DNA of 25,175 nucleotides from a virus, in the IMG/VR virus record IMGVR_UViG_3300017741_000046, positions 1 through 25,175 of that record; one strand, 5' to 3'. The first letter of the stretch is position 1. Each line of letters opens with the position of its first letter. The notes beneath the pieces were generated by a model. It did not search any database, was not told where the DNA came from, and worked only from the letters and a program-made list of their open reading frames with translations. Below, one piece after another: positions 5,948 to 25,172 of this stretch. The translations under genes were made by a program, and so were the position numbers.

Positions 5948-5977
5948 ATTATATATAAGTACAATGAGAATAGTCAG
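5948..5977 (-). promoter_or_regulatory. Sigma70-type promoter for scaffold-capsid operon
   Basis: On the minus strand CTGACT (4/6 match to -35) is separated by 18 bases from a perfect TATAAT at 5953-5948. The predicted start near 5941 leaves about 60 bases of leader before the scaffold ATG. It is the best host-type promoter in this gap, seen by eye only. Confidence 0.5.
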
Positions 5978-6083: not shown

Positions 6084-6109
6084 TACTTTAATTATATACT
6101 AATAAACTA

Positions 6110-6137
6110 AAATAGTGGGGTTTTATCCCCACTATTT
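6110..6137 (-). terminator. Perfect 11-bp hairpin, likely terminator
   Basis: AAATAGTGGGG and CCCCACTATTT pair without mismatch around a six-base loop. On the minus strand the stem is followed by TAGTTTATTAG, a broken U-run. It would end an RNA begun at the 6195 promoter after about 80 bases, or act as an attenuator before the capsid operon. Confidence 0.5.
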
Positions 6138-6194
6138 ATACGTTCACGAAAGGAAGGTTATCTAATCGATTGCTCGAAGAGAGTCCTTAATATT

Positions 6195-6221
6195 ATTATA
6201 CACGAAAAAAAACTATGTAAC
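6195..6221 (-). promoter_or_regulatory. Candidate promoter, capsid control region
   Basis: A perfect TATAAT (6200-6195) on the minus strand has GTTACA (4/6 match to -35) 15 bases upstream, a short spacer. The -35 box overlaps the GTAACC half of the repeated plus-strand element at 6217, so a factor bound there could block or recruit RNA polymerase. Confidence 0.35.
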
Positions 6222-6246
6222 CTTTTTTAAAGTAAGAGTCTCTAAG
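6217..6246 (+). promoter_or_regulatory. Copy A of GTAACC-N17-CTCTAAG element
   Basis: GTAACC at 6217-6222, a 17-base spacer and CTCTAAG at 6240-6246 match the layout of three copies near 23.4, 24.0 and 25.0 kb. The spacer shares the leading T-run and the AAA at positions 7-9. Unlike those copies, no gene follows on the plus strand; a terminator begins within 10 bases. Confidence 0.55.
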
Positions 6247-6254
6247 TAATGTAA

Positions 6255-6299
6255 AGCAAAGCCCTAACTGTTTGTTTGTTTCTAGTTGGGGTTTTTGCT
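6255..6299 (+). terminator. Strong hairpin terminator at the end of the 275-residue gene
   Basis: On the plus strand CCCTAACT pairs with AGTTGGGG and is followed by TTTTT. The stem extends outward through AGCAAA/TTTGCT. Two G-U pairs (6265/6288 and 6261/6293) favour the plus-strand RNA. On the minus strand the same hairpin has a C-A mismatch and is followed by CTTTGCTTT, so it may still end the upstream late transcript. It overlaps the TAG of the 275-residue gene. Confidence 0.65.
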
Positions 6300-11867: not shown

Positions 11868-12834
11868 TATAATTCTCTCCTAATCTGCTTTTCTCTTTGT
11901 CTGTTATCATATCGAACTTTTCTCTCATTCTACTTTCAGCATCTATCTGTGTAAGACCTTGGTCCTCGATAGCGCTTTGTACATTGTCAGCTGCATAGTT
12001 TCCATAATCACCAGCAAGTATTTCCTCACCAGTCATCTCTGGTTGTTGTTGTGCTGTAGCAGCTAAAGATTGATTCTGTTGATAAGAAGCTTCTGCTTCT
12101 TTGTACATTGTGTTAGATAACAGTTTAAGTTCAGAGGGATTAGGGTCTCTGTTTAAATCTGCAGCATAAAGTCTTTTTACTTTCTGTGCAATAGTTGCTG
12201 GGTCAGCTGGTAAGTAAGTCTCTGATTGTGGTATCTCTGGTACTGGATTAGCAACATATTCATCTAATGTTGTTTTCCATGCAGCACCATTAAGTTTTTC
12301 TACATCAGTAATACCACCTCTATTTGCTCTGCTTAACACTGGAGTAAAAGCTCTTTGAGTTGCTAGGTCCCATTCTCCTGGCATAAATCCATCACCAACA
12401 CTAAGTAGATTAGAGTTAATTAAATCTGCTTGTATGCCAGCAATCTCTTCTTCTGATTTGCCAGCGAATAAGTTAACTAAATCTGTTTCAGTATAGAAAT
12501 CTGTAGCACCAGAACGTGGAGGAACATAGTTAGCTGGTACACCTAAGACTGCATCTTGATTACCGAACTGTCCATATTGTTCAGTAGCTGCTGCTAATGC
12601 AACATTATCTCCTGTAACACCTGTTATGTCTTGTCCAGATGTAGCAAAGTCTATGACATATTGCGGAATGTTTGAAGATAATAAATATAAAGAAGCATCT
12701 TGTATTGTAGGTGCTGATAGTATATCTACTCTTTGTTCTGTTGTAATACCTATTTGATTGGTACCTAGTGAATCATCTTCATTAATCTGAAGTATTATAC
12801 TTTCTATTCTTTGTAAAAATTCATCAACTGTCAT
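11812..12834 (-). CDS. Predicted virion protein (340 aa)
   Basis: The family is not recognised. The protein is acidic and rich in Gln, Asn, Ala and Asp. Residues 1-30 form an amphipathic helix (VDEFLQRIESIILQINEDD). Around residues 125-165 there is a compact segment (TETDLVNLFAGKSEEEIAGIQ, then GFMPGEWDLATQRAF) whose pattern is reminiscent of small helical repeat domains. The C-terminal third is probably coiled coil. It overlaps the giant gene by 11 bases and the hydrolase gene by 56 bases, so all three are likely translated together. The context points to a virion or ejection protein. Confidence 0.75.
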   Translation of the reverse strand: MTVDEFLQRIESIILQINEDDSLGTNQIGITTEQRVDILSAPTIQDASLYLLSSNIPQYVIDFATSGQDITGVTGDNVALAAATEQYGQFGNQDAVLGVPANYVPPRSGATDFYTETDLVNLFAGKSEEEIAGIQADLINSNLLSVGDGFMPGEWDLATQRAFTPVLSRANRGGITDVEKLNGAAWKTTLDEYVANPVPEIPQSETYLPADPATIAQKVKRLYAADLNRDPNPSELKLLSNTMYKEAEASYQQNQSLAATAQQQPEMTGEEILAGDYGNYAADNVQSAIEDQGLTQIDAESRMREKFDMITDKEKSRLGENYSARNTRATILNSIANRPN

Positions 12835-15800
12835 TTAATCCTCTTATTAATTCTATATCTTCATCTGCTTCTCGGAGTTCTCTTTCAAAGATTTCTTTTG
12901 CTAAGGGTCCAAACTCTGGGTACTTAACCAATATACCTTGCATCTTGTTTCTTAACAAGCTTCTAAATGGTGCTAGTTTGTTTGAACTTCTAAAAGATTT
13001 GTCAGTATAGGTAGGATTTAATTTTTTTGTTTCTGCAATTACTGCATCTCTAGTCTTTACATACTCAACTAAACCTAATGCTGCTGGGTTAGTTGTCAGT
13101 GAACTGTCTAGTTGATAGCTAACTGGGTCGAACCATGTGTACAATTCATCAATCAAATCATCCATCTCTGGTTTAGTTTGTGAATAGTCTATGCTTCTAC
13201 CATAACCTGGGTACTTACTAGCTATCTCTGCTTTCTTATTTCTTTTAGCTTGTACAGAAACCTTATCGTTTCTTACTAACAATCCATTCTCTTTAACAAA
13301 GTTTTCATACTCAACGCTGCCTAAGAGAATGTTCTTAGCTTGTTGCCATTGTTCTATAGTTCTAGGAACTCTATCTCCACTAATAATCTGATTCCAATAT
13401 TGTTCGTACATGAACTCTGAATTAGTTTCATCTATTAAGAATGCGTAAGTTAAATCAAATTTCTCTACAAGTTCTGGGTTATTTCTCTCCCATGTAGCAC
13501 CATCAGCTGTGACTGGTCTTTTCTTTATAGTCTCTGTTCTACTGGTAGCTAATGTAATTGGGTTAAATCCAAATCTCTCTACGAATGTTTTAACTGCTGT
13601 AGAACTATCTGGTGAAGCATTAGATATATTTCTATACTCTTCGGCTAATGTTTCAAACAAGAATAGTTGTCCTGTCTTATCAGATATCTCATACTTAGGG
13701 CTTACAGCACCAGATGGTCCTATAGCTTGTGAGATACTTCTAATAATAAATATATTCCTGGCGTAGTCTCCTGCTAACTCCATACCTTCATTAGCTCCTT
13801 CTGGAGAACTATCATCAATCTTTCCTGCATACACCAAAGCTTTATACACATCAATGGTTGTATTGGAGAACATACGTTTAGATTCTGCTCCACCTATTCC
13901 AAAAGCAGTACCTAGTTTCTTTAACCAAGATGGTGCTGGTGCTAATGATGTTATAACTTCGCTAATAGTTTCTGTACGAGGTGGTGCAAAGTCTCCAAAC
14001 AATATTGTCTCTTCCCATTTACCTGGTCTCAATACATTAAACTTACGATTTATAAATGCAGCTGGCACTGTAATAGTTGGACCGAAACCTGGTATTAAGT
14101 TACCTGCTATATTTAAAGAACCAGCAAAGACTGGTAGGTTAACTTGTACACCATTCTCTGTTAAGTCTTTAAACATCCACTTTTGTATTAATCCTTCTCC
14201 TGGGTAACCAAATAACTCTTCATTAGTATTTGGGTCTTTGTAAAAGAATCCTTTTTGTCCAGAATCATCAAACACTGGGTTAGGTTTTTGTGCTGACTGT
14301 ACAAGCTGCTGCGCTCTACGTAAAGGTCTGCCTTGATTTTCTACAAGTAATCTACTCCAAGTACTAAAGATTTCTACGTATGCTTCACCGAATGGGAACA
14401 ATCCTCTAGTTGCATTACCTAATCTAGTTCTAGTAGATACATCATAAAGAAGTTTTTTAGTTTCAGTAAGCGCATGTGATGCACCTATCTTATCTATAAT
14501 CTCTACTTTGTTTATGCCGCCTTTAACTCCTTGGTAACTTTCTAATTTTTTAAGTACAGCTTTTTCATTCTTAGTTCCTGTAGCTAGTCCAGCTTCTTTA
14601 GCTTGTTGTACTAACTTCTTAAGTGTTGCTGCATTAGCATGTTGTGCAAAGTCTCCTACTTTGTCCCAGTAATGAAACTTAAAGGTTGGCGCTCTTGACA
14701 TTGTCTTAGTAGGAATAGTCATAAAGAAATTAAAAGATTCATCTACAAAGTCATCTAACCTTCTAGTTTGTGATGTCATTGCATTCTTTAACTCTCCACG
14801 TGCTTGTTCTGGTAATACTTTTTCAAACTTCTTAACGAAATCTTTTTTCATCTTCTCTTGATTTTTTCTTAACTGTGTAGTTATAGAAGTGTATTCAGCA
14901 TCACTAAGCTGACCAGCCCAGTATTTACCCATGTCTATATTTTCTAACCCTACTAACTCTGCAGCATCCATTGCTTCATCTGACAAAGCTTTAAGTAAAT
15001 CTTCTTTACCATTCTCATCTATCCAGTTTCTAGCAAGTCTTGCTCTATTACCTTTAGTGCTTGTCTCTACAATTCCACCAGTAACTTGTGCTACTGAAGC
15101 ATTTGCATAGTAAATAAACTCTTCTGCTTTAGCTTTACCTGGCGCACCATTAAAGCCAGCTCCTTTAAAAGCGTGTCCTTCTGCACCTGTAACTTTTCTA
15201 ATATGTTTATTTAATGGGTTACCTTGTGTCTGTGCTTCTTTAATTAATTTATTTAGCTGCGCTTTTCTAGCAGCAGTATTTGGTTCTAATTGTATTGCCG
15301 CAAGTCTCCTGGACAATGGGTCAAACTTGTGTTGCATAAAGTTTCTAAATGATGCTTCTCCCCAAGCTCTTCTATTCTCTTGTCTTGATACTGTAGTAAA
15401 TCTACCTGTTCCACCTGTTCTCCTGGAAGCAGAAGTTATACCTGCACCATTCAAAGTTACATCAATAAACTGTGCGTTATCTTCAAAAGAACCTAATAAC
15501 ATCTTGCTTGATTCTTTTTCTTTACCCATAGTTCTAGCAATCATTTGTGCTGGATGTGTAATAACATTAGTAACACCAGAAGATAACATTCTTAATTGTT
15601 CTTCTGCTATAACTCTTATTGTCCATGCTGGTCGTAATAGAACTAATGGTTTGAATAAGGCACCATAATACCAATCCATAAACCTTCTTGTTGATTCTAC
15701 ATTCCCAGAAGCTAGTAATTTAGTTCCTACTTTTCCTAGTGTCTCATCTAATGCTTTAGCAGAACGTATTAAAGCTTTAGGGTCTGGCAAATATATCTCA

Positions 15801-17539
15801 TCTGCTAACTGTGATGCAACTACTGGGTCTAATAAATTTTCAACACCATCTAACTTACCTCCTTGTAATTGTCTTAATACATTAGTTATTGGTACATCTC
15901 CACCAGATGAATCTATTGTATAACTTCTTACAGTATCTTTATTTTTCTTAGCGGTTCCAATAAACCTTGCCTGGACACTTAGTCCTTCATCAACTAATTT
16001 ACTTTGCCATTCAGATAACTTTGATGTAGCTGCTTTAACAGTAGTTTTTTCATCTACACCTGCTAGTCCACGTATAACAGCTGGTTTAAAATTTCTCTCT
16101 ATAAAGTTAGTAACAACTATTGCTGTTTGTGAAGGTGCATCTGCAGCACTAAGTGCTTTCATAGAATCTTTCATAAACTTATCTGCAGTTTTAGCAGCTT
16201 TATCTTTATCCATACTTGATGTAGCTAAACGTATAAATCTATTTAATGAAACTAAACTATCATTTTTATTTTCTGTAACAAGTCTTGTTCCATAAGTTCT
16301 TTCCATTCTTTTTGTTAAAAAATTACCTTTTCTTTTAACTGTAGGAACGTTGTTTAATGTTGCCTTTACTAATAATTTCTCATTAACTAATTCAGTAGTA
16401 AGCGCATCATCTATCTCATCAAATGATTTACCTTTATTTTTTGCTTTAAATTTATCTAAAGCAACATAAAAATCATAGTCATCAATATTATTTTTGGATG
16501 CTGCAATAATATCTGATGTATTGTTTTCCCATAAGAATTGTTTAAACTTTACACCATTCTTACCAGCAAGAAATTCTTGTGATGTTGGTCCGAATATAGT
16601 TTTACGTGTTCCCTGGAGTAATCCAGTATTTTCAAATAACTTACCTGCATTACTTAAATTTTCTAATTCAGTAAATGTTTTAGCACCAGCTCTAAGTTTT
16701 CCTACTCCTAGTGTTGCAAGACCTACTGGGTCTAAAAAGATTTGTGCAAGTATGTCTAAAGCACCAGTTATGTTGTTGTAGGCAGCTGTACCTGGTTCTA
16801 TAATCTCATCCACTGGTTTAAATAAAAAACGACCAATAGTTACTGTAGGGTCAAGTCCAGCTTCTTCAAATCTCTCTGCTCTCTCTCCAGTAAACTGTAT
16901 TGCTTCTTCTGCTTTTTTTCTTTGTTGCTCATAAATCTGTACACCTAAAACATTATCTAGTACAAACTCTCTAGCTACTAATGGGTCAACTCCAGCTGCT
17001 AACATGTTTTTGTATTCATCTGTTTGTGTTGGGTCAGTGCTACCTAGAAACCATCCTGTACCTAAATCAACTTCTTTACCTGCTGCTTCAGCTTGTGCTT
17101 TCATATCTAGTAATGAAGATTTAGATTTACCTTTAGCTTCATCGTGAGTCATACCTTGTTGTCTGCCTTCTAAATACCTAACTCCTCTAGCAGCTCCTGC
17201 TTCCCATAAGTTTTGGAATCCTAGGAATAAACCACGTGATGCACCTTTTGCTTTTTCTTTAACACTGATAGCTTCACGTAATTTAGAAAAACCATTCTGT
17301 TCTTTAGCTAAAGATTCTTTTAAAACTATTTGCTGCAATCTAGGGTCATTATCACTAATACCTAACTTGACTGCACCTACTAATGAACCTTTACTTATTG
17401 TTGGATATTTTTTTACAATAGCTGAAGCTTGGTTAGCCATAGCTTGTGTAGCTTGTGTTGGTGCAACAGATTTTTGTATCGCTCTTTCTGTAGCAGAATC
17501 ATCTGCAAAAGAAGCTGCATCAAAGGTACTGTATGCCAT
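12824..17539 (-). CDS. Giant virion protein, probable ejection/internal core protein (1571 aa)
   Basis: This is the largest gene of the window, one fifth of its length. It is predicted to be mostly helical, with Lys/Glu-rich regions. Conspicuous hydrophobic stretches lie near residue 270 (ALDILAQIFLDPVGLATLG), near 630 (GALFKPLVLLRPAWTIRVIA) and near 1050 (GLFPFGEAYVEIFSTWSRLL). A late Gly/Pro-rich hydrophobic segment reads LIPGFGPTITVPAAFI. No long heptad tape-measure pattern is visible, and no tail-tube genes are present. It is therefore more likely an internal protein ejected into the host, like T7 gp16, than a tape measure. No catalytic motif was found. The ribosome site is AAAAGGG, four bases before ATG, and it starts just after the 120-residue gene. 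Confidence 0.8.
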   Translation of the reverse strand: MAYSTFDAASFADDSATERAIQKSVAPTQATQAMANQASAIVKKYPTISKGSLVGAVKLGISDNDPRLQQIVLKESLAKEQNGFSKLREAISVKEKAKGASRGLFLGFQNLWEAGAARGVRYLEGRQQGMTHDEAKGKSKSSLLDMKAQAEAAGKEVDLGTGWFLGSTDPTQTDEYKNMLAAGVDPLVAREFVLDNVLGVQIYEQQRKKAEEAIQFTGERAERFEEAGLDPTVTIGRFLFKPVDEIIEPGTAAYNNITGALDILAQIFLDPVGLATLGVGKLRAGAKTFTELENLSNAGKLFENTGLLQGTRKTIFGPTSQEFLAGKNGVKFKQFLWENNTSDIIAASKNNIDDYDFYVALDKFKAKNKGKSFDEIDDALTTELVNEKLLVKATLNNVPTVKRKGNFLTKRMERTYGTRLVTENKNDSLVSLNRFIRLATSSMDKDKAAKTADKFMKDSMKALSAADAPSQTAIVVTNFIERNFKPAVIRGLAGVDEKTTVKAATSKLSEWQSKLVDEGLSVQARFIGTAKKNKDTVRSYTIDSSGGDVPITNVLRQLQGGKLDGVENLLDPVVASQLADEIYLPDPKALIRSAKALDETLGKVGTKLLASGNVESTRRFMDWYYGALFKPLVLLRPAWTIRVIAEEQLRMLSSGVTNVITHPAQMIARTMGKEKESSKMLLGSFEDNAQFIDVTLNGAGITSASRRTGGTGRFTTVSRQENRRAWGEASFRNFMQHKFDPLSRRLAAIQLEPNTAARKAQLNKLIKEAQTQGNPLNKHIRKVTGAEGHAFKGAGFNGAPGKAKAEEFIYYANASVAQVTGGIVETSTKGNRARLARNWIDENGKEDLLKALSDEAMDAAELVGLENIDMGKYWAGQLSDAEYTSITTQLRKNQEKMKKDFVKKFEKVLPEQARGELKNAMTSQTRRLDDFVDESFNFFMTIPTKTMSRAPTFKFHYWDKVGDFAQHANAATLKKLVQQAKEAGLATGTKNEKAVLKKLESYQGVKGGINKVEIIDKIGASHALTETKKLLYDVSTRTRLGNATRGLFPFGEAYVEIFSTWSRLLVENQGRPLRRAQQLVQSAQKPNPVFDDSGQKGFFYKDPNTNEELFGYPGEGLIQKWMFKDLTENGVQVNLPVFAGSLNIAGNLIPGFGPTITVPAAFINRKFNVLRPGKWEETILFGDFAPPRTETISEVITSLAPAPSWLKKLGTAFGIGGAESKRMFSNTTIDVYKALVYAGKIDDSSPEGANEGMELAGDYARNIFIIRSISQAIGPSGAVSPKYEISDKTGQLFLFETLAEEYRNISNASPDSSTAVKTFVERFGFNPITLATSRTETIKKRPVTADGATWERNNPELVEKFDLTYAFLIDETNSEFMYEQYWNQIISGDRVPRTIEQWQQAKNILLGSVEYENFVKENGLLVRNDKVSVQAKRNKKAEIASKYPGYGRSIDYSQTKPEMDDLIDELYTWFDPVSYQLDSSLTTNPAALGLVEYVKTRDAVIAETKKLNPTYTDKSFRSSNKLAPFRSLLRNKMQGILVKYPEFGPLAKEIFERELREADEDIELIRGLNDS

Positions 17540-23010: not shown

Positions 23011-23130
23011 ATGAAATGCAAGAAGTGTAAGCGTACATTAAAGCGTGTTAACGATAACTTAGCTTACTGTGATAACTCACCTAATGTGTGTACCTTATCT
23101 ACAAAAACTATAGACATACACAACATATAG
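23011..23130 (+). CDS. Micro-protein with CxxC zinc-type motif (39 aa)
   Basis: The frame encodes MKCKKCKRTLKRVNDNLAYC and continues to a fourth cysteine at residue 27: C3-x2-C6-x13-C20-x6-C27, a plausible zinc-binding set at the end of a basic segment. The remaining 12 residues are polar. Only a weak AAAGAA precedes the ATG. The end overlaps a hairpin at 23126-23155. It is the third tiny cysteine-paired protein within one kilobase. The function is unknown; it may be a nucleic-acid-binding or transcription-modulating peptide. Confidence 0.6.
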   Translation: MKCKKCKRTLKRVNDNLAYCDNSPNVCTLSTKTIDIHNI

Positions 23131-23155
23131 TACCACTACATCTAGTAGCACTATA
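23126..23155 (+). terminator. Hairpin overlapping the stop of the 39-aa gene
   Basis: TATAGT/ACTATA (6 bp) encloses CTAC-ATCTA-GTAG (4 bp) with a small internal loop. It is AT-rich and lacks a U-run, so termination is uncertain; a dyad binding site is equally possible. Confidence 0.3.
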
Positions 23156-23425
23156 TATAGTAATTAATTGGCATTAAATAAATCTAGTGTTACGAATACG
23201 AATACCACCCCCTCAAATTAGCATTCCCATTGCTTGTCCTATAATCTATAATATGTTGCGTTAGAGGGTCTATGTTTCCTAGGGTTTACAGATAAAAGCC
23301 CTGTTTCACTGGTTATTAGATAGTATGTCTAAAAGTACCCCAGTTATTTTTCTGAATGGATATGGCATGGGCTGAATTGCTGAGGATTGTTAGATAACAC
23401 TGAATAAAAAATATTTAAAATACTT
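23131..23425. other. Gene-poor intergenic region before the early block
   Basis: No convincing gene is seen on either strand; the only frames are shorter than about 25 codons and lack ribosome sites. The region holds a sigma70-like promoter at 23224-23252, a tandem ACGAATACGAATACC repeat near 23190, and an AGGGTTT/AAAGCCCT hairpin near 23280-23300. It probably acts as the control region of the plus-strand genes. Confidence 0.5.
23224..23252 (+). promoter_or_regulatory. Sigma70-type promoter upstream of early genes
   Basis: TTCCCA (4/6 match to -35) is followed after 17 bases by a perfect TATAAT at 23247-23252; another TATAAT lies at 23240-23245. Transcription would begin near 23259 and give a leader of about 200 bases before the P-loop gene. 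Confidence 0.5.
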
Positions 23426-23455
23426 GTAACCTTTTGTAACTGCATAGAGTCAAAG
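23426..23455 (+). promoter_or_regulatory. Copy B of GTAACC-N17-GTC(T)AAG element
   Basis: GTAACC at 23426, a 17-base spacer and GTCAAAG at 23449-23455. The ATG of the P-loop gene begins eight bases after GTC. A second GTAAC lies inside the spacer (TTGTAAC repeated after three bases). If GTAACC and TCAAAG act as -35/-10 boxes, the transcript would start at or next to the ATG. Confidence 0.55.
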
Positions 23456-23459
23456 CAGT

Positions 23460-24044
23460 ATGAAACAAACAAACAATATTACATTCATGATAGGTGCAAG
23501 CGGGAGCGGTAAGTCTGCCCATGTTGCTAAGGAAGCAGCAAGGACTAATGCGTTCGTGATTGACCCCGATGAAATCAAGGCGAAACTAAACAAGGACCAA
23601 CCACTATCAAAAGATATCAATGCGGAGCTGCACCCAGCAGCCAGCGACATTGCTTCAAAGATGCTTGAGTTTTATTTCAATGATACTCAAGGATTTTTAG
23701 ACAACTACAGCTGTAACAATGTCATCTTCGATAATCGTGGCAAGTCACCAATAAAAGTACTGAAGAGGATACAAGCAGCAAAAGAAGCTGGACTATCTGT
23801 AAAGGTTATTTACGTAGAAGTAGAACTCCTTAATTGCTTAATCAATGTATTCATTAGGAATCTTAAAAGCAATAGGGCTATGTATCTTCAAGAAGTAATC
23901 AACGCTTATGATTCCATGAAGATATCAGTTGCAATATGCAGGATGCTGCACGTTACAGGAATCATTGAGATGCAAACAGTACAAGGATACAGAAGAATAA
24001 AATCTAAAAGAATATGTAACCTTCTCAAAGTCGGGAGGGTCTAA
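23460..24044 (+). CDS. P-loop kinase, zeta-toxin/polynucleotide-kinase-like
   Basis: This 194-residue protein begins with a beta strand and a Walker A motif (GASGSGKS, residues 12-19), followed by FVIDPDEIKAKL (D35, D37), the substrate-binding/catalytic Asp segment of zeta-toxin-like kinases. NNVIFDNRGKS (86-96) is the second conserved loop, and FIRNLKSNR (131-139) could provide the lid arginines R133 and R139. Family members phosphorylate UDP-N-acetylglucosamine (zeta toxins) or nucleic-acid ends; which applies here is unknown. No antitoxin gene is recognised beside it. The ATG follows the repeated GTAACC element, without a ribosome site. Its last codons contain the next copy of that element. 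An early host-takeover or nucleic-acid repair role is inference. Confidence 0.7.
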   Translation: MKQTNNITFMIGASGSGKSAHVAKEAARTNAFVIDPDEIKAKLNKDQPLSKDINAELHPAASDIASKMLEFYFNDTQGFLDNYSCNNVIFDNRGKSPIKVLKRIQAAKEAGLSVKVIYVEVELLNCLINVFIRNLKSNRAMYLQEVINAYDSMKISVAICRMLHVTGIIEMQTVQGYRRIKSKRICNLLKVGRV

Positions 24045-24046
24045 AG
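24016..24046 (+). promoter_or_regulatory. Copy C of GTAACC-N17-GTC(T)AAG element
   Basis: GTAACC at 24016, a 17-base spacer and GTCTAAAG at 24039-24046 lie inside the last codons of the P-loop gene. From here TGAAGGAAGGAAAA (24051-24064) and the ATG at 24068 sit at exactly the same offsets as in copy D. Confidence 0.6.
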
Positions 24047-24067
24047 AATATGAAGGAAGGAAAAATT

Positions 24068-24235
24068 ATGAGAACTGCTTGGAAGGTAGAAGATATAGCA
24101 AAGTACGCACACTTAGGAGATAAGATGAGCAAAGTTGGTACCGCTAAACATGGAGACGAATACGATGCTGGAACTTGGGAGATGTTAATAGTTGAAGCAG
24201 TCATGGATAAGTTAGAAGCTGAAGGGAGAATATAA
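24068..24235 (+). CDS. Small early protein (55 aa), unknown
   Basis: The frame is open from an ATG at 24050, but that triplet lies where the transcript probably starts. AAGGAAGG then precedes the ATG at 24068 by about seven bases, so the 55-residue form starting MRTAWKVEDIAKYAHLGDKM is chosen. The protein has a helical N-terminus and a C-terminal helix (WEMLIVEAVMDKLEAEG). It is slightly acidic, without cysteine or membrane segments. It is the first gene of a three-gene run with the 78- and 177-residue proteins. No family was recognised. Confidence 0.65.
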   Translation: MRTAWKVEDIAKYAHLGDKMSKVGTAKHGDEYDAGTWEMLIVEAVMDKLEAEGRI

Positions 24236-24237
24236 AA

Positions 24238-24474
24238 ATGAAAACGATTCAAGAAATACAGAAGGACTGGGCAGGCGCATTCGATACAGTCAAGCTATCA
24301 AGCGGGGAGATTGTAGAGGGTAAAGCAGCATTCGAGATTTACATAGAGGAAGGGCTAACAGTTTATCAAGCGCTTAGTAAAACACTAAGAGAATTTATCA
24401 GCGGTAAAGAGATATATAAATACTGCTTCGAGAATTTCATTCCAACAAATCCAATCAAGAAGGAGGTTAAGTAA
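24238..24474 (+). CDS. Small early protein (78 aa), unknown
   Basis: This 78-residue protein starts two bases after the upstream stop, with AGGGAG before its ATG. It looks like a small alpha/beta fold: a helix (IQEIQKDWAGAF), two strands (VKLSSGEIVEGK), then helices (LTVYQALSKTLREFI). The C-terminus has FENFIPTNPIKKEVK. Its stop overlaps the next ATG as TAATG, so it is coupled to the 177-residue gene. No known family and no catalytic motif were recognised. Confidence 0.7.
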   Translation: MKTIQEIQKDWAGAFDTVKLSSGEIVEGKAAFEIYIEEGLTVYQALSKTLREFISGKEIYKYCFENFIPTNPIKKEVK

Positions 24475-25007
24475 TGGGAGCAGGTAATTGTTACCCAGCT
24501 GCATGGAATGCAATCAACACCAAAAAGAATGATGACTATATCGTGGTCCATGCACTGCGAGATATATTCAAGGGTGCTAATCACTTCGGAGGACATGCCT
24601 TCTTAGTTAGAAAATGGAAGGATGGAAAACTATTAGAGAATCCTACTGTTTATGATGACTGCATCAGCGCTAAATATATTGATGGTTCTGTTGATGGTGT
24701 TGTTGATGGGATGCCATTCGATGAGTATGTAGAGAAAACCCACGTTGTAACAGAGGGTGAGTATGTTTACAAAGAATATACTAGAAAAGAATTAAACAAA
24801 GAGACTGCAAAAGATATGGTTCACATGCCATTTGATTTAGCTAAGGAACGATGGGCAATGAAGCCAAAAGAATTTGCTAAGAGATTCCCAGGGTATGAGA
24901 GCTATGTAGATTACATGAAGAATTATTATCAACCAACATTCGAGCCGCACTGGGTCAAGCTAATGGAGATGCACAAAGCAGATGAAGCTAAGAAAAAAAA
25001 GGTGTAA
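24474..25007 (+). CDS. Putative papain-like cysteine enzyme with GNCY/GHA motifs (177 aa)
   Basis: The N-terminus reads GAGNCYPAAWNAI, with C6 at the start of a helix as in papain-fold enzymes. FGGHAFLVRKW places H41 on the following strand, and LLENPTVYDD after it offers N56 or D60 as a third residue. GNCY-x-AA with GHA is a pattern I have seen in small phage and host proteins likely to be cysteine peptidases or related amidases; activity is inferred. The C-terminal half is charged and helical (MPFDLAKERWAMKPKEFAKRF) and ends in AKKKKV. An ideal ribosome site (AAGGAGG, seven bases away) and coupling to the 78-residue gene support the start. There is no signal peptide, so it would act in the cytoplasm. 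Confidence 0.6.
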   Translation: MGAGNCYPAAWNAINTKKNDDYIVVHALRDIFKGANHFGGHAFLVRKWKDGKLLENPTVYDDCISAKYIDGSVDGVVDGMPFDEYVEKTHVVTEGEYVYKEYTRKELNKETAKDMVHMPFDLAKERWAMKPKEFAKRFPGYESYVDYMKNYYQPTFEPHWVKLMEMHKADEAKKKKV

Positions 25008-25033
25008 CCTATTTCAAATTTAAATAGTCTAAG
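25004..25033 (+). promoter_or_regulatory. Copy D of GTAACC-N17-GTC(T)AAG element
   Basis: GTAACC at 25004, a 17-base spacer and GTCTAAG at 25027-25033, overlapping the stop of the 177-residue gene. TGAAGGAAGGAAAA (25039-25052) follows, and the next ATG lies 52 bases from the start of the element, as in copy C. Confidence 0.6.
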
Positions 25034-25055
25034 TTACGTGAAGGAAGGAAAACAA

Positions 25056-25172
25056 ATGGAAGAAAAAGAAATTGTTTGGGTAGATATATTCGGCAATGAA
25101 GTTAAGAGAGATGTGTATCAGATAACTGGTGCAGGTGCAGACACTATGAAATATAAAGAGGAGCTTAAGTAA
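25056..25172 (+). CDS. Small early protein (38 aa), unknown
   Basis: ATG at 25056 is preceded by AAGGAAGG at good distance and gives 38 residues: MEEKEIVWVDIFGNEVKRDV, then a short segment with ITGAGADTMKY. It may form a small beta-hairpin and helix. The TAA overlaps a following ATG at 25172 (TAATG), so another coupled gene probably begins here and runs out of the window. A GTG at 25038 in the same frame is at the presumed transcription start and is not preferred. No family was recognised. Confidence 0.55.
   Translation: MEEKEIVWVDIFGNEVKRDVYQITGAGADTMKYKEELK

Follow-up and report, generated by a model that had tools for sequence, protein, structure and literature searches.

Do the two-box sequences that recur ahead of the early genes of this phage serve as promoters and, if they do, which RNA polymerase would read them? 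The window, by which we mean the whole 25,175-nt stretch of DNA analysed here, carries GTAACC at 23426, 24016 and 25004, each time followed by a second box. The original prediction read these copies as promoters, either with a -35-like GTAACC and a -10-like TCTAAG or of a phage RNA polymerase, and placed the RNA start at the A or G of a nearby start-like triplet.

Copies of the motif in the window and the genes behind them

We confirmed that exactly 17 bases separate GTAACC from GTC in all three copies. The triplets ATG (23460), ATG (24050) and GTG (25038) begin eight bases after GTC, and the ATGs at 24068 and 25056, behind the last two copies, each lie 52 bases from GTAACC, as had been described. 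The coding context was also as claimed: the first copy (B) is intergenic, the second (C) lies at a gene end and the third (D) extends across a stop codon. In copy C, the TAA stop of a 194-aa gene (24042–24044) is part of GTCTAA, and in copy D the stop codon of a 177-aa gene (25005–25007) is part of GTAACC. Three matches of the predicted motif in the window compare with 0.07 expected, and none of 100 dinucleotide shuffles reached three. The recurrence had in fact been understated, as a fourth copy, TGTAACC-N17-CTCTAA, is present at 6216–6245 on the plus strand. The window thus contains four matches of TGTAACC-N17-(G/C)TC(T/A)AA, all on the plus strand (6216, 23425, 24015 and 25003). This full motif adds to the predicted core one base on the left (T) and three bases on the right, and GTC can be CTC.

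The four putative promoters all point along the plus strand. Copy B (23425–23460) has its -35 element TGTAACC at 23425–23431, its -10 element GTCAAA at 23449–23454 and a predicted start at 23460, which is the A of an ATG and would make the transcript leaderless. Copy C (24015–24050) has its -35 element at 24015–24021, its -10 element GTCTAA at 24039–24044 and a predicted start at 24050. In copy D (25003–25038), the corresponding positions are 25003–25009, 25027–25032 (GTCTAA) and 25038, and in the fourth copy (6216–6251) they are 6216–6222, 6240–6245 (CTCTAA) and 6251.

Copy B is followed by the first early gene (23460–24044, plus strand), which encodes a 194-aa P-loop protein resembling the polynucleotide kinase / zeta-toxin family. 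The small open reading frame (ORF) after copy C (24050–24235, plus strand) encodes 61 aa when read from 24050, or 55 aa from the ATG at 24068, which is preceded by the Shine–Dalgarno sequence GAAGGAAGG. Two early ORFs without a family come next on the same strand, one of 78 aa (24238–24474) and one of 177 aa (24474–25007). The small ORF after copy D (25056–25172, plus strand) encodes 38 aa from the ATG at 25056, with a Shine–Dalgarno sequence at 25040–25048. As far as the sequence can tell, the copies stand at the head of early genes or gene slots, and each would give its gene or slot a start point of its own. The transcripts would be early, judging only by the position and content of the genes.

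Recurrence of the motif in related phages

Viral contig scans returned relatives with terminase identities from 100% down to about 60%. No named phage had a DNA match to the window, and the terminase was about 28% identical to those of Streptomyces phages. One relative, G001, has 38,975 bases including a 1,591-base end overlap, and we treated it as complete, with a genome size of about 37.4 kb. Its late structural genes occupy one strand and its small early genes form a block on the opposite one; among its products are an exonuclease, the large terminase subunit, and tail and baseplate-like proteins. A late protein of 1571 aa, encoded at 12824–17539 of the window (minus strand), is conserved in the group and had no Pfam, PHROG or PDB sequence match.

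We counted the motif in 30 records, comprising the window and 29 related records. The exact motif TGTAACC-N17-STCTAA occurred 54 times on the early-gene strand and never on the opposite strand, and with a spacer of 16 it occurred eight times and again never on the opposite strand. There were no exact matches in the 30 records with spacers of 14, 15, 18, 19 or 20, and none to the reversed motif. A position matrix was then built from 28 distinct copies, with a site cut-off of 20 bits. It found 95 sites above 20 bits in the 30 records, all on the early-gene strand and none on the opposite strand, and a reversed-sequence control of about 1.5 Mb gave no match above 20 bits. As the copies behind the matrix came from the searched records, the sites themselves are no blind test; the empty opposite strand and the reversed control are. 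Many of the 95 sites are orthologues shared between related records and hence not independent; the independent evidence is the repetition inside one genome, where the eight matrix sites of G001 differ in spacers and neighbours (the window has four). Only one match was found outside the phage group, on contig L167, and it was taken as a chance match because this contig shows no relatives of the phage's genes. The matrix scan of relatives had been set beforehand as the test on which the original prediction could fall, and it found copies throughout.

The distance between the motif and the first early gene was constant. In all motif-bearing relatives examined, the ATG of the kinase/zeta-like gene lies exactly at the predicted +1, with no Shine–Dalgarno sequence ahead of the gene. 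The stretch from this ATG to the P-loop varies in length and sequence, yet the ATG stays at +1. Because the predicted +1 purine is always the A of the ATG, the mRNA of the first early gene is probably leaderless. Behind most of the other copies, a Shine–Dalgarno sequence such as AAGGAAGG is found within about 30 nt downstream, and most of these transcripts would start a few nucleotides ahead of a strong ribosome-binding site. The RTG triplet at +1 is not generally a start codon; at several copies, the frame it opens ends at a stop codon or does not agree with that of the gene.

The sister clade (G007, G016, G017 and G026; terminase identity 85–87%) has the kinase-like gene and other genes of the early block and does not have the motif. 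Three of its records (G007, G016 and G017) carry TGTTACC-N17-TATAAT before the region of a 200-aa gene, in the place expected for the main-clade type of promoter. This hints at an altered -10 element, so that promoter specificity has apparently shifted inside the group. An automatic search of the sister clade for a promoter in the form of a gapped pair gave nothing clear. Two other sequences were observed ahead of the early genes of the window. The long non-coding stretch there has three tandem 14–15-nt repeats (CACNACATNTAGTA-like) at 23119–23162, which are possibly iteron-like. A stretch at 23170–23290 (CGAATACGAATA ... TTGTCCTATAA ... ATGTTGCG) is kept in the sister clade too and may be an origin or a housekeeping promoter.

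Anatomy of the boxes and the polymerase that may read them

Both boxes are nearly invariant, while the spacer is mostly variable among the 20 distinct copies with a spacer of 17. Almost all of the 28 distinct copies have TGTAAC as their first box, with AAC invariant in those 20. The second is STC(T/A)AA with an invariant TC; it is a GTC-type box in which the preceding base is mostly A, not C. Spacing has little tolerance, exact matches being confined to spacers of 16 or 17. In the 20 spacer-17 copies, spacer positions 1–4 are T or A, bar a single C in one copy, position 8 is A in 18 of the 20, and an A-rich stretch lies 3–8 nt ahead of the -35 box. A purine is found 5 nt past the -10 box in 27 of the 28 distinct copies. 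Such an anatomy is what one would expect of a bipartite sigma promoter and its start site: TGTAACC would be the -35 element and STC(T/A)AA the -10 element, and RNA would start at the purine 5 nt past the latter. The comparison thus speaks well for the predicted start at the A or G of the triplet and upholds the promoter reading, though not the second box as first proposed, TCTAAG, whose conserved form is STC(T/A)AA.

These boxes resemble those of ECF sigma factors. The Bacillus subtilis SigX promoter is TGTAAC / CGWC and that of Escherichia coli RpoE is GGAACTT / TCAAA (as quoted in PMC12153292), and the Caulobacter sigma-F promoter is GTAACC-N16-CGAA (PMC3511200). SigAb promoters combine a spacer T-run with an upstream A/T run, and spacers of 17 or 16 suit them better than one of 18 (PMC12153292). 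The phage motif shares with ECF promoters (SigX, sigma-F, RpoE and Acinetobacter SigAb, GTCAAC / CGTT) the AAC-core -35 element, the GTC-type -10 element, the spacing of 17 or 16, the T-rich start of the spacer and the A/T-rich upstream tract; the last two features of SigAb promoters are both present. It differs from them in occurring in up to eight copies per genome before early genes, in the A that usually precedes GTC and in having no adjoining sigma gene. Searches of G001 and its relatives with PF04542 and TIGR02937 gave nothing above cut-off, whereas control bacterial genomes gave matches. Autoregulated ECF systems and phage-sigma systems usually have the ECF sigma gene in their own genome, though it would be unneeded if the host supplies the sigma factor.

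We favour a host ECF sigma factor, since boxes and spacing match ECF promoters and the searches of G001 and its relatives recognised neither a sigma factor nor an RNA polymerase. We consider it reasonably likely that the motif is a phage-wide early promoter of the ECF type, each copy being read by host core RNA polymerase with an ECF-like (group 4) sigma factor, most likely the host's own. The sigma class is suggested by resemblance, and the host origin of the sigma factor is the least certain part of this explanation. Two points speak against an ECF promoter: early genes depending on a stress sigma factor would be unusual, and CGTC-type boxes have a C ahead of GTC where the phage motif mostly has an A.

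Alternatively, the host core polymerase may read the same promoters by means of a highly divergent phage-encoded sigma factor or a sigma-appropriating protein that profiles miss, and they would then be middle promoters. Among the small early proteins, several without a family are conserved, those of 63 aa and 77 aa were seen only in motif-bearing records, and the motif hardly occurs outside this phage group. None of the proteins stood out as a candidate for such a sigma factor. A conserved helix-turn-helix (HTH) protein of 72–82 aa has a weak sigma region 4 match in distant relatives, but it is present in the motif-free sister clade too. The failure of the PF04542 and TIGR02937 searches, set against the matches in control bacteria, and the presence of the motif already at the very first early gene also argue against a phage sigma factor, which we regard as rather unlikely. 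Phages phiEco32 and 7-11 offer a comparison, as their middle/late promoters (tAATGTAtA, an extended -10 with no recognisable -35) go with a phage sigma gene (PMC4331800, PMC5333181). The likeness lies in phage promoters tied to an ECF-like sigma factor and host core polymerase; here, in contrast, the motif is unlike tAATGTAtA, both its boxes are strong, and the searches recognised no gene for a sigma factor.

Ordinary sigma-70 promoters with a poor match, read by the host housekeeping holoenzyme, would also have a typical spacing of 17, and the sister clade does carry TGTTACC-N17-TATAAT before the 200-aa gene. The boxes, however, are unlike TTGACA and TATAAT, the constraint lies on GTC and AAC and not on the TATAAT positions, and a sigma-70 scan of the region gave 12 sites against 17.7 in shuffles, with none at the copies on the plus strand. 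Such promoters are thus a most improbable source of the motif, which taken together agrees better with an ECF-sigma promoter.

T7- and N4-type phage polymerase promoters are repeated on one strand and have a fixed start. The phage motif has the same strict one-strand repetition and fixed start, and the group does encode a 1571-aa late protein without a family, so a single RNA polymerase, encoded by the phage or carried in the virion, was considered. The motif differs in being bipartite, with a mostly variable spacer of 16 or 17 in place of the contiguous conserved block of T7-type promoters. No phage polymerase gene was matched in the complete relative, in searches of which one gave no match for its positive control either, and the family alignment of the 1571-aa protein showed no polymerase motif by eye. 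The conserved small hairpin of N4 virion polymerase promoters was likewise absent, as spacer folding was not better than in shuffles (5 of 50 as good, mean over copies). The phage-polymerase option of the original prediction therefore finds hardly any credence with us.

Gene cassettes, hosts and transcription during infection

The 6216 copy runs antisense to the late genes and lies between two genes whose ends or starts are at 5964 and 6298. Directly past it, a terminator-like hairpin occupies 6255–6299 on the plus strand (GCAAAGCCCTAACTG...CTAGTTGGGGTTTTTGC; fold -18.7 kcal/mol, z -4.6). The sole match of the window to a known RNA family was STnc400 at 6100–6189, far below the cut-off. In this slot among the late genes (6216–6299 in the window, 26311–26640 in the oriented G001), the putative promoter and terminator are shared between records and the small genes between them differ. 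One or more small ORFs follow the promoter in G001, G002, G004, G009, G010, G024 and G027. In the window, G003, G006 and G020 the slot is empty, with the hairpin following at once, and would yield an RNA of only about 50 nt. Moron genes of phages have their own promoter and terminator. The 6216 slot is like them in having both, against the late-gene direction, and in its exchangeable small genes; it is unlike them in that its promoter is of the same type as those of the early genes and in that it is empty in these four records.

Near-identical promoters stood between differing neighbours in an ungapped comparison, in which some differences are insertions. This arrangement, and the capacity of copies C and D to pair between their boxes, would also suit an element other than a promoter, such as an intergenic RNA processing, translation or hairpin element, or a recombination boundary of gene cassettes. 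The folding result given above speaks against such an RNA element, and the leaderless mRNA of the first gene would not include the motif. A recombination site, for its part, need not follow gene orientation or fix the distance to an ATG. A non-promoter role is thus very unlikely, and cassette exchange can go together with promoter function.

A host scan of genomes with a single protein gave no match. An alignment scan found terminase relatives of 51–55% identity on contigs binned with Actinomycetota, Gammaproteobacteria and Rhodobacteraceae metagenome-assembled genomes (MAGs); as these relatives are spread over three taxa, the scan does not indicate a host. The motif was not enriched over control in those MAGs. 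The phage contigs concerned (L162, L163, L164 and L165), found in marine MAGs, are probably phage DNA in the bins.

A limited literature search found no report of a phage with ECF-type promoters before its early genes and without a phage sigma gene. We suggest, tentatively, that these apparently lytic marine phages may start early transcription from a host ECF sigma factor of the envelope-stress type, coupled to the stress state of the host, the first mRNA being leaderless and a single portable type of promoter standing before every exchangeable cassette. Given its specificity, the motif can be used to annotate transcription units of these uncultured phages and may also help in identifying the host. 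If a host stress sigma factor is used, takeover of the cell would be tied to envelope stress, which infection may itself trigger.
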